Assembly (NCBI RefSeq): GCF_002355595.1
Contig: NZ_AP017422.1
Span: 7,196,823 to 7,260,822 of the forward strand
Source: Filimonas lacunae
GTDB taxonomy: Bacteria; Bacteroidota; Bacteroidia; Chitinophagales; Chitinophagaceae
Length of the DNA: 64,000 bases
Direction: 5' to 3'
The position numbers were made by a program, and so were the translations under genes. The notes beneath the pieces were generated by a model that did not search any database, was not told the origin of the DNA, and worked only from the letters and a program-made list of their open reading frames with translations. Shown piece after piece: positions 9,863 through 11,820 of the stretch; position 1 is the first letter of the stretch, and each line of letters starts with the position of its first letter.

Positions 9863-10918
9863 GTGAAGCAAAAAAGGCGTTATACAACAGGCACACGTAT
9901 AGGAGCTACGCTTATTTTGATAAGCTGTGTAGTAGCATTGCTGGCATATGTAATAGCCCCCGACAATTCGCCTAACGCCAACCGTATGCTGCCGGAGCTG
10001 GCGAACAAAAAGCCAGGCTTTGCTATACAGGCATTACGGTTACGGAAACCAGCGGGTGGCGAACAGGTATCCTTTGTCAACGGCCTTATCAATGGCAGGC
10101 CCGACAGGTATCAGTATATTCCTTTACAACAATACACTATGCAAGGTGATTCTATCATCATTCAAAAGTTTATTGATGATGGAGTGTATGAACGTAAGTC
10201 ATATGCTGTAGATGCCTGTGCCGCAAAGCCGGTAACTACACTGCGCTTTTACCTGGGCAGCGATCGCTTTGGAAGGGATATAGCCAGCCGTTTAATCATA
10301 GGCACCCGGGTAAGCTTAGGAGTGGGCTGTATTGCCGTTTTATTGTCATTGACCATAGGTATGCTGTTAGGCGCTTTGGCCGGTTATTTTAAAGGCAAAA
10401 CAGATGATATCATCATGTGGCTGATTAACGTGATCTGGAGTGTGCCTACCTTGTTACTGGTGTTTGCCATAACCCTGGTATTGGGTAAAGGTTTCTGGCA
10501 GGTGTTTATTGCGGTGGGATTAACCATGTGGGTAAATGTGGCCCGTTTGGTGAGGGGGCAGGTGCTGGCGGTGCGTGAAATGGAATATGTAGAAGCGGCG
10601 CGGGCTTTAGGTTTTTCGCATGCGCGCATTATTGCAGGTCATATATTGCCCAATATTCTGGGGCCGGTGCTGGTGATTGCCGCCAACAATTTTGCTTCAG
10701 CTATAGTGATAGAAGCAGGGTTGAGTTTTTTAGGCGTAGGCGTACAGCCCCCGCAGCCCAGCTGGGGGTTAATGATAAAGGAGAATTACAACTTTATTAT
10801 TACACACAATCCCATGCTGGCTTTGGCGCCTGGTATCACTATTATGTTGCTGGTGCTGGCTTTTAACCTGCTGGGCAATGGCTTGCGCGATGCCTTACAG
10901 GTAAAAAGCAGGTTCTAA
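9863..10918 (+). CDS. OppC/DppC-type ABC transporter permease
   Basis: This is an inner-membrane permease of the oligopeptide/nickel family. Its N-terminal membrane segment is followed by a periplasmic stretch, then the conserved LGSDRFGRDIASRLIIGTR, five further helices and the EAA loop EAARALGFSHARIIAGHILP that docks the ATPase. I place the start at GTG 9863 (19 bases after the glycosyltransferase stop); a TTG at 9806 in the same frame would overlap that gene by 38 bases. No ATPase, binding protein or OppB partner is next to it, so it must assemble with subunits encoded elsewhere. The convergent Lrp gene overlaps its end by four bases. Confidence 0.88.
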   Translation: MKQKRRYTTGTRIGATLILISCVVALLAYVIAPDNSPNANRMLPELANKKPGFAIQALRLRKPAGGEQVSFVNGLINGRPDRYQYIPLQQYTMQGDSIIIQKFIDDGVYERKSYAVDACAAKPVTTLRFYLGSDRFGRDIASRLIIGTRVSLGVGCIAVLLSLTIGMLLGALAGYFKGKTDDIIMWLINVIWSVPTLLLVFAITLVLGKGFWQVFIAVGLTMWVNVARLVRGQVLAVREMEYVEAARALGFSHARIIAGHILPNILGPVLVIAANNFASAIVIEAGLSFLGVGVQPPQPSWGLMIKENYNFIITHNPMLALAPGITIMLLVLAFNLLGNGLRDALQVKSRF

Positions 10919-11382
10919 CTTTTTACCAGCACATTCCGGTTAAAGCTTTCTTCCAGGCAAATAAGTGTTTCGGTACGTTCAATGCCCTTGATCTTTTGCA
11001 GTTCGTCGTGCAGTACAAAACGCAGTTGCTGAATATCTTTACACACTACTTCTATAAACATGCTATAGTTTCCCGTGGTATAATTAACCCGAACGATTTC
11101 TGGTATTTTCTTCAATTCTTTAGCAACTGTATCGTATAAAGAGCTTTTTTCAAGATAAATTCCAATAAAGGCGATAACGTCGTAGCCTAAAAGTTTTAAA
11201 TCAACACTTAGTTTTGTACCTTTAACTACACCCAGCTCCTGTAGTTTTTTGATGCGTACGTGTATGGTGCCACCAGAAACGAAGAGTTTTTTGCCAAGAT
11301 CTGCATAGGAAATTTCAGCATCCTCCATCATCTCCTGGATTATCTGAAAATCCAGTTTGTCTAAATTCAATTTACCCGCCAT
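10915..11382 (-). CDS. Lrp/AsnC family transcriptional regulator
   Basis: This 155-residue regulator has an N-terminal helix-turn-helix (LDKLDFQIIQEMMEDAEISY, then DLGKKLFVSGGTIHVRIKKL) and a C-terminal RAM ligand-binding domain (about 70-150) with the alternating pattern typical of the family. Such proteins sense amino acids and form octamers. Its 5' side faces the tRNA-Leu-like RNA gene; an inverted repeat at 11501-11517 lies in the shared upstream region and could be an operator. It is convergent with, and overlaps by four bases, the permease gene. The ligand is not known. Confidence 0.92.
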   Translation of the reverse strand: MAGKLNLDKLDFQIIQEMMEDAEISYADLGKKLFVSGGTIHVRIKKLQELGVVKGTKLSVDLKLLGYDVIAFIGIYLEKSSLYDTVAKELKKIPEIVRVNYTTGNYSMFIEVVCKDIQQLRFVLHDELQKIKGIERTETLICLEESFNRNVLVKS

Positions 11383-11540
11383 TTTGATTCCCCTTTTTTG
11401 AATTTATTTAATATATAAAGCAATTTATTGGATAATTTCTATACTTTCAAAATTTTCTTTGAAATATTTACAACAAAACGGCATATTTATTAATATTGTG
11501 TTGTCAAACAACGACAAACAAACAAGTTCTTTTCAAATAC
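11383..11540. other. Upstream region shared by Lrp gene and tRNA-like RNA
   Basis: This AT-rich stretch has no protein gene. It holds TAATATTG at 11491-11498, one mismatch from the -7 box TAnnTTTG, and the inverted repeat TTGTC (11501-11505) / GACAA (11513-11517) with an overlapping GTTGT/ACAAC repeat. These could be promoter and operator for the RNA at 11541, but the assignment is tentative. Confidence 0.35.
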
Positions 11541-11702
11541 TGTGGGGTGATGAAACTTTTGGCAGACATGCCCTCTCGTCTCGGGGGTGAAGATAACAGG
11601 ATAAACGTAGCATAGAGCCTTCCGCAAGGAAGACCGGGGTTGACCACCGGACTTTGTACTACAGCTAACTGCTTCGTGTAGGTTCGACTCCTACCCCTAC
11701 AG
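11541..11702 (+). ncRNA. tRNA-Leu-like RNA with giant structured variable arm
   Basis: Both ends fold as a class II tRNA. The acceptor stem is TGTGGGG (11541-11547) with CCCTACA (11695-11701), seven pairs with one G-U, and G11702 is in the discriminator position. TG follows as positions 8-9. The D-arm is ATG/CAT around a loop containing GG and ends CAGACAT, as in tRNA-Leu. An anticodon stem CCCTC/GGGGG encloses the seven-base loop TCGTCTC. The T-arm is GTAGG-TTCGACT-CCTAC (11678-11694). Between anticodon and T stems lies an 87-90 base arm beginning TG and ending CGT, as in tRNA-Leu. It is closed by GAAG/CTTC and folds into a three-way junction with a GCAA tetraloop hairpin. CCA is not encoded. 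Position 33 of the loop is C instead of the universal U and position 37 is a pyrimidine, so ordinary decoding is doubtful. A terminator follows at 11780. I do not know a described family like this. The structure is seen directly; the function is unknown. Confidence 0.75.
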
Positions 11703-11779
11703 CGGTCAAACAGGGGCCTCTTATGGTTTTCTCAATGTGTAAGGGGCTCTTCGTTTTAAAAATCAACTATTTATGGGAT

Positions 11780-11820
11780 AAAGGCTTTCCTCTGATCAAA
11801 AACAGGGAAAGCCTTTTTTG
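11780..11820 (+). terminator. Intrinsic terminator of the tRNA-like transcript
   Basis: An 11-base-pair perfect stem (11780-11790 with 11806-11816; AAAGGCTTTCC arm) ends in six T. It lies between the tRNA-like RNA and the next protein start at 11882, so the RNA is probably a transcription unit of its own, with a 3' trailer of about 115 bases. Confidence 0.88.

Follow-up and report, generated by a model that had tools for sequence, protein, structure and literature searches.

Some tRNAs act outside translation, staphylococcal tRNA-Gly in wall synthesis being an example, and in Escherichia coli the regulator AsnC controls the divergent gene asnA, which serves asparagine supply. Passages of PMC4206432 set out a puzzle: GatCAB is kept in some bacteria, including Bacteroidetes, despite the presence of both AsnRS and GlnRS, and some of these bacteria have no asparagine synthetase; for Bdellovibrio, the same passages propose tRNA-Asn together with a non-discriminating AspRS. 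The parts of PMC9976931 that deal with tRNA-Asp name five strong AspRS determinants conserved in evolution (G73, G34, U35, C36 and C38), describe G1-C72 and G2-C71 as likewise conserved in bacterial tRNA-Asp, and state that bacterial AspRS places the acceptor end also via the first acceptor pair, G1-C72. According to the same source, U1-A72 permits the amidation of Asp-tRNA; in tRNA-Asp, G1-C72 and U20a prevent it.

Here we describe a real and widespread class of RNA, tRNA-like with an enlarged, structured variable arm, for which no earlier description was found in the open-access literature. One member lies in the 64-kb window (the whole stretch of DNA analysed here). We propose, at a probability of roughly 60%, that these RNAs are non-decoding and serve as a dedicated substrate for making asparagine by the tRNA-dependent route of AspRS and GatCAB, under AsnC-type control; this would offer a direct answer to the GatCAB-retention puzzle for Bacteroidota. 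The features of the locus are as follows.

10915-11382, minus strand: divergent AsnC-type regulator (Pfam AsnC_trans_reg, 63 bits)
11491-11498, plus strand: promoter-like TAATATTG, so called by resemblance to the Bacteroidota -7 box
11526-11531, plus strand: leader element GTTCTT (25 of 99 leaders, each 60 nt long, against 1.6% of shuffles)
11541-11703, plus strand: tRNA-like RNA, nucleotide 1 to C74 (covariance model, 136.9 bits; structure counts)
11541-11547, plus strand: acceptor stem 5' strand UGUGGGG, partner 11695-11701 (U1-A72 and G2-C71 in 76/76)
11550-11569, plus strand: D-arm with 3-bp stem AUG/CAU and GG at 18-19 (two of three pairs with both-side changes)
11571-11587, plus strand: anticodon arm (stem 98.3% paired with one-side changes only, 36 long copies)
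11576-11582, plus strand: anticodon loop TCGTCTC, with anticodon GUC at 11578-11580 (G34, U35, C36, C38 in 76/76; U33 in 51/76)
11589-11675, plus strand: variable arm, about 87 nt in the window copy
11589-11592, plus strand: 5' strand of stem V1, 3' strand 11672-11675 (both-side changes in 3/4 pairs among 76 copies, 2/4 among 36)
11597-11599 with 11669-11671, plus strand: helix V2, CAG/CUG (both-side changes in 16, 13 and 7 of 36 copies)
11600-11606 opposite 11665-11668, plus strand: internal loop GAUAAAC opposite CUAA (A.AAA and CTAA constant in 36 aligned long copies)
11607-11614 with 11655-11662, plus strand: inner helix P3 (both-side changes in 5/7 pairs, in up to 20/36 copies)
11615-11635, plus strand: optional hairpin of variable size (sequence and length differ among copies)
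11637-11647, plus strand: conserved loop of the long form, GGGUUGACCAC (GG.T.GACCAC constant in 36 aligned long copies)
11678-11694, plus strand: T-arm with canonical TTCGA loop (100% paired; both-side changes in 3/5 pairs)
11695-11703, plus strand: acceptor 3' strand, discriminator G73 and encoded C74 at 11702-11703 (each 76/76)
11781-11819, plus strand: intrinsic terminator (-20 kcal/mol, z -3.87)

The cloverleaf frame that the earlier note had drawn at 11541-11702 is borne out by the window sequence and by comparison: T8-G9 follow the acceptor 5' strand as in the tRNA frame, and the cloverleaf helices, G18G19, the T-loop and C74 are those of a canonical tRNA, C74 being encoded in all 49 distinct ARAGORN tRNAs of the genome. 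That note's variable region of about 90 bases agrees with the window copy but does not extend to the class, in which some copies measure about 110 nt from end to end and total length ranges from 103 to 212 nt. The arm is built in the order V1 (4 bp), 5' bulge, V2 (3 bp), internal loop RAYAAA/CUAA, P3 (with one C-A mismatch in the window copy), optional hairpins and the GG.U.GACCAC loop, and the internal loop resembles the UAA/GAN motif. The 36 rows of the long-copy alignment were chosen as long forms, five of them for containing GACCAC, and include 11 from phage contigs; the internal loop differs in other phage copies outside this alignment. Among the matches listed, a looser version of the GGGUUGACCAC-loop motif occurs in 48 of 50 distinct phage copies and 36 of 97 distinct named copies, the other 61 of the 97 having no match to it. 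By eye, the short forms do without the GG.U.GACCAC loop but retain V1 and, for the most part, the internal loop; they carry a small terminal hairpin.

The resemblance to tRNA-Leu suggested earlier holds for the D-arm and the base of the variable arm: class II tRNAs share, by eye, the 3-bp D-stem, a similar D-loop and the two nucleotides between arm and T-stem. It does not hold for identity, as the RNA has G73 and the non-leucine anticodon GUC in 76/76 copies, against A73 in the genome's six distinct tRNA-Leu sequences; its arm is also larger, with an internal loop and, in the long form, a conserved terminal loop. Charging with leucine or serine was considered and is unlikely on identity elements (G73, GUC, and the conserved AspRS set and GatCAB determinant). 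With tmRNA there is a tRNA-like acceptor and T-arm in common, but the RNA is much smaller, possesses a D-arm and an anticodon arm, and gave no tmRNA match with ARAGORN or Rfam, in agreement with the earlier rejection of that identity.

ARAGORN made no tRNA call in the window, Rfam gave no match there at gathering score and 18 weak ones at relaxed thresholds, none of them tRNA or tmRNA, and the RNA is absent from the 70 RF00005 matches listed for the whole genome. In this way both tools missed here a conserved RNA, 110 nt or longer, that is present in cultured genera. The fold of the lone sequence is unremarkable (z -1.07, with a minimum-free-energy structure of another shape), so that the window by itself proves little and comparison carries the proof. 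Homologues were found by blastn in 30 of the 59 genomes searched, the window's own counted. Thirty-three copies were collected, and a covariance model was built from 12 of them, aligned, with the tRNA helices drawn by hand. It matched 219 of 248 genomes of the order at E <= 1e-3 and 155 of the 248 strongly (E < 1e-20, our definition of an RNA-positive genome); in a sample of the class, 53 of 296 genomes had a strong match. Because scores in the class search are bimodal and the weak matches mostly about 84 nt long, we took the weak ones to be ordinary tRNA-Leu, and assumed the same for the order search. Carriers among the matches listed include Chitinophaga pinensis, Mucilaginibacter, Pedobacter, Dyadobacter, Spirosoma, Algoriphagus and Cyclobacterium, as well as Saprospiraceae and one Ignavibacteriales MAG. 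Tandem copies are frequent; one genome (G450), for example, has three copies of 111 nt each, spaced 19 nt apart. Conservation through the order, multiple copies and carriage by phages do not support the view, also raised earlier, that the RNA is a relic.

In the 12 aligned copies the hand-drawn tRNA helices are paired in 300 of 300 cells. A MAFFT alignment of the 36 long copies, made from sequence only, has 97.1% of 1259 cells paired across tRNA and inner helices, with both-side changes in 20 of 35 pairs (14.1 in shuffles) and 176 both-side-changed cells (42.5 in shuffles); when partners are slid out of register, pairing falls to 47-57%. Such changes are present in each of the acceptor, D, T, V1, V2 and P3 helices, and the anticodon stem shows one-side changes only, both in these 36 and in a set of 76 distinct copies. 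The latter derive from a covariance-model search of 69 of 87 family loci (many of those left out were same-place repeats), which gave 80 copies, 76 of them distinct; in their model-based alignment, which is biased towards structure, 99.4% of 1900 cells are paired and 12 of 25 pairs have both-side changes (127 cells). An unguided RNAalifold consensus recovers the acceptor, T, V1, V2 and P3 helices; it did not find the D-stem and placed the anticodon stem in another register. The covariance-model search of relatives that had been set as a check has returned homologues with covarying stems, the anticodon stem excepted. Kissing between the GUCYC loop and a GGGAY internal loop, an idea taken from one copy, is not supported, since by eye many copies have AGGAU, GGAAU or GAAAU at that internal loop.

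All five strong AspRS determinants, G34, U35, C36, C38 and G73, are found in each of the 76 distinct copies, as are G2-C71 and U1-A72, the latter standing where AspRS would use G1-C72. The positions that matter for decoding are looser: U33 occurs in 51 of the 76, and at position 37 there are 74 copies with U, one with C and one with G, against U33 in 48 and a purine at 37 in 47 of the genome's 49 distinct ARAGORN tRNAs; the window copy, with C33 and U37, departs from the canonical pattern at both. Among the matches listed in the pattern-found sets, U1-A72 recurs in 96 of 97 named and 49 of 50 distinct viral copies, and one of the 50 breaks G2-C71. Each of these sets holds at least 120 stretches, with copy statistics drawn from 80 of 120; loop invariance in them exists by construction because the selection pattern fixes GTCYC, and the automatic copy delimiter, which forces GC at 73-74, dropped 17 of the 80 viral copies. 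The genome's own tRNA-Asp has G1-C72 with G73, and its tRNA-Asn and tRNA-Gln have U1-A72. Position 20a of the RNA, by our own numbering of the GGCAG stretch, is A and not U20a, so that the pair permitting amidation is present and both elements that prevent it, G1-C72 and U20a, are absent.

Compared with tRNA-Asp(GUC), the RNA has the same G34, U35, C36, C38, G73 and G2-C71 but differs in U1-A72, the long variable arm, the Leu-like D-arm and pyrimidine 37. With tRNA-Asn of the indirect AspRS-GatCAB pathway (transamidosome) it shares U1-A72 and G73, and aspartylation followed by amidation would be expected in both; however, it has GUC in place of GUU, does not keep U33 and purine 37, carries extra helices within its 103-212 nt, and occurs despite AsnRS. 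Its likeness to staphylococcal tRNA-Gly would be that of a charged tRNA-like molecule kept from decoding, although that tRNA retains ordinary size and form and belongs to another amino acid and pathway. Since the strong AspRS set and the amidotransferase determinant are kept while the decoding bases drift, we infer that the RNA is selected to be aspartylated and amidated, not to decode. The 'aminoacylated RNA with a non-translational role', one of the possibilities in the earlier note, is the reading now favoured. Against it stands the absence of G1-C72, a pair that bacterial AspRS uses. In addition, AspRS approaches tRNA from the variable-loop side, so that the long arm could clash.

Divergent from the RNA, with about 160 nt between its start codon and the RNA start, lies the gene of the AsnC-type regulator. 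Its best solved structure is E. coli AsnC (2CG4, 116 bits; Lrp, 47 bits), it scores 160.8 bits with NCBIfam AsnC, under the cut-off of 227, and it has YTTGNYS where E. coli AsnC has YTTGHYS, a stretch which we take to be the AsnC effector region. Of 120 named loci listed, 11 are without upstream room; an AsnC/Lrp-family homologue of the regulator stands divergent beside the RNA in 82 of the other 109 and is absent from 27, and in a subset of 80 named loci the count is 52 of 75. The arrangement recalls E. coli asnC-asnA, in which an AsnC-type regulator is divergent from an asparagine-supply gene, with the RNA here in the place of AsnA. Upstream of the RNA, TAATATTG comes near, with an inexact match, to the Bacteroidota -7 box TAnnTTTG, and GTTCTT is presumably boxA-like. 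A terminator-like hairpin lies downstream of 76 of 97 named copies among the matches listed, against 17% of shuffles. As to other neighbours, 12 of 80 named loci (L223, L204 and related) have a SufB-type protein encoded on the far side of the AsnC-type gene and in its orientation, and an AMP-binding enzyme follows the RNA in 13 of 80, one member of each having been identified with Pfam.

The window genome has GatB (518.9 bits), AsnRS and GlnRS, so GatCAB is not needed there to replace either synthetase; gatB lies about 0.7 Mb from the RNA. Across the 248 genomes of the order, AsnRS was matched in 245 and GlnRS in 199. Among these 199, 132 have both the RNA and GatB, two the RNA without GatB, eight GatB without the RNA, and 57 neither: the two agree in 189 of 199, and GatB, the component searched for GatCAB, is present in 132 of the 134 RNA-positive genomes. 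The two RNA-positive genomes without GatB (G254, G195) are assemblies of 510 and 360 contigs. Two of the 199 (G080, G188) had no AsnRS match at E <= 1e-80. In the 49 genomes lacking GlnRS, whose tRNA-Gln depends on GatCAB, RNA and GatB are not linked (20 with both, one with the RNA only, 26 with GatB only, two with neither). The co-occurrence has a Fisher p of 2e-38, a value that ignores kinship and overstates the evidence because related genomes are not independent. Double-positive and double-negative genomes occur together within six genera (g34, g11, g57, g52, g93, g124), and the discordant ones fall in genera g34, g52, g97, g116, g121 and five genera seen once. In the class sample, GatB is present in 53 of 53 RNA-positive and 167 of 243 RNA-negative genomes, the remaining 76 having neither. 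Against the proposed role, GatB could be kept for tRNA-Asn, which has U1-A72 here, if AspRS is non-discriminating. AsnS matches cluster either near 1e-170 or near 1e-92 (G042, G055, G073 and others; families f3, f8, f12 and f21 among them), which suggests two AsnRS types in the order.

Asparagine synthetases were surveyed in 80 chosen from the 199 GlnRS-positive genomes, 39 with neither the RNA nor GatB and 41 with both. AsnA was found in 5/39 against 1/41, AsnB of the E. coli type (by match shape) in 11/39 against 0/41, and one or the other in 15/39 against 1/41; five of the 11, when checked, scored 659-943.5 bits as asparagine synthase B (cut-off 499). Other AsnB-like proteins scored 261-301 in four RNA-positive genomes and 274 in one RNA-negative genome, and many RNA-positive genomes have such proteins above the TIGR01536 cut-off (the window genome's has 592 aa and 356 bits). 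Since these proteins are common in both groups, loss of asparagine synthetase is not general, and the idea that it is lost in all RNA-positive genomes is untrue. At the limits used, genomes showing neither AsnA nor any AsnB match are similarly frequent in the two groups (8/41 double-positive, 6/39 double-negative).

Sequence and comparison establish the structure, the identity elements, the neighbour and the GatB co-occurrence, with which the following course of events would be compatible. The RNA would form its own transcription unit, probably controlled by the adjoining AsnC-type, asparagine-sensing regulator, and its transcript would be trimmed by tRNA processing enzymes and receive CCA. 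AspRS would read GUC, C38 and G73 and load aspartate; GatCAB would read U1-A72, absent from true tRNA-Asp, and amidate the aspartate to asparagine on the RNA. The altered loop, in which U33 is not fixed and position 37 is a pyrimidine, would together with the bulk of the arm exclude the product from the ribosome, whose use of it would place asparagine at aspartate codons. The asparagine would then be released or handed on, a release step for which there is no candidate enzyme. In a broader form, which we hold tentatively and at somewhat below even odds, the RNA would be a carrier in amino-acid biosynthesis, a reusable cofactor on which asparagine is made in replacement of asparagine synthetase, with copies carried by Bacteroidota phages, many of them with palindromic loops through which two molecules would pair. 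Should this hold, amino-acid synthesis would involve an RNA that stands apart from translation and is also carried by phages.

Other readings diverge from this one at different steps. The asparagine could be passed by a transferase to an acceptor of its own (a peptide, a lipid or the wall) and not freed, which the same identity and GatB evidence and the non-decoding look of the loop would suit equally, and we know of no enzyme that releases asparagine; we consider this unlikely; no aminoacyl transferase was recognised in the neighbour clusters common to at least four of 80 loci, four cluster members being, by Pfam, an AMP-binding enzyme, SufB, an ABC transporter and a class-V aminotransferase, though a gene elsewhere in the genome might encode one. 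A regulatory RNA of an AsnC-type regulon, sensing aspartate or asparagine through its charging (e.g. by titrating AspRS or GatCAB while uncharged) or pairing with mRNAs, would account for the two strongly conserved loops, GUCYC and long-form GGGUUGACCAC, and gcvA-gcvB is a known divergent pair of transcription factor and RNA; yet base-pairing alone would leave U1-A72 and G73 free to vary, and a presence and absence shared with GatB points to the amidation step, which makes this role quite unlikely.

That the RNA decodes, as an unusual long-armed isoacceptor of tRNA-Asp, is very improbable: it has the aspartate anticodon and AspRS determinants and sits among ordinary tRNA genes in some phages, but a normal tRNA-Asp(GUC) is already encoded in the genome, U33 and purine 37 are found in 51/76 and 1/76 copies against 48/49 and 47/49 of the genome's tRNAs, and U1-A72 would invite amidation to asparagine. 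We give an equally slight chance to the co-occurrence with GatB being shared history only, with an unrelated role for the RNA; kinship among the genomes and the distance between RNA and gatB would allow it, whereas the presence of both double states in six genera and the lack of a link in genomes without GlnRS speak against it.

Phage copies of the proposed asparagine-forming RNA were retrieved from IMG/VR by an IUPAC pattern; blastn against phages and plasmids gave no match. In the 80 IMG/VR loci examined of at least 120, the RNA is present in each, two copies being cut at locus ends, and among the matches listed the contigs reach 289 kb. Eight of 10 neighbour proteins match phage families, including portal protein, DNA polymerases and an endolysin-type peptidase, and an AsnC-type gene was found in 0 of the 80 stretches. 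In two of four phage contigs scanned with ARAGORN (L287, L300), the RNA sits among 14 ordinary tRNA genes. After the GACCAC loop, a palindrome of at least 6 nt follows in 41 of 48 distinct phage copies (46% in shuffles) and one of at least 10 nt in 25 of 48 (5% in shuffles); named bacterial copies have no such excess (7/36, 31% in shuffles). The phage palindromes have many different sequences, e.g. GCGCGC, TTGTGCACAA, GCTAGCTAGC and GCCGGCCGGC (L266-L345), and GCGCGC and GTGCAC are loop sequences in HIV-1 RNA dimerisation. The palindromes suggest that two phage RNA molecules may pair through them.

Two further tRNA-related RNAs were seen alongside. In the window genome, a 117-nt RF00005 match without an ARAGORN call (L088, G000:C1:7369644-7369760) has the acceptor, D and T arms, with an insert of roughly 60 nt in place of the anticodon arm. 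A second phage RNA family has near-constant tRNA-Leu-like ends, about TAGTCAGGTGGCGAAATTGGTAGACGC and ATACAGGTTCGAATCCTGTCCTGACTAC, enclosing differing inserts (very roughly 40-110 nt) in which no anticodon arm can be recognised; its members lie at L287:5129-8252 (minus strand), L296:4342-4707 and 9979-10113 (minus strand), L300:4906-5974, L334:2656-4773 and L304:9733-9831, clustered up to six within about 3.1 kb, and look like a tRNA chassis with varied cargo.
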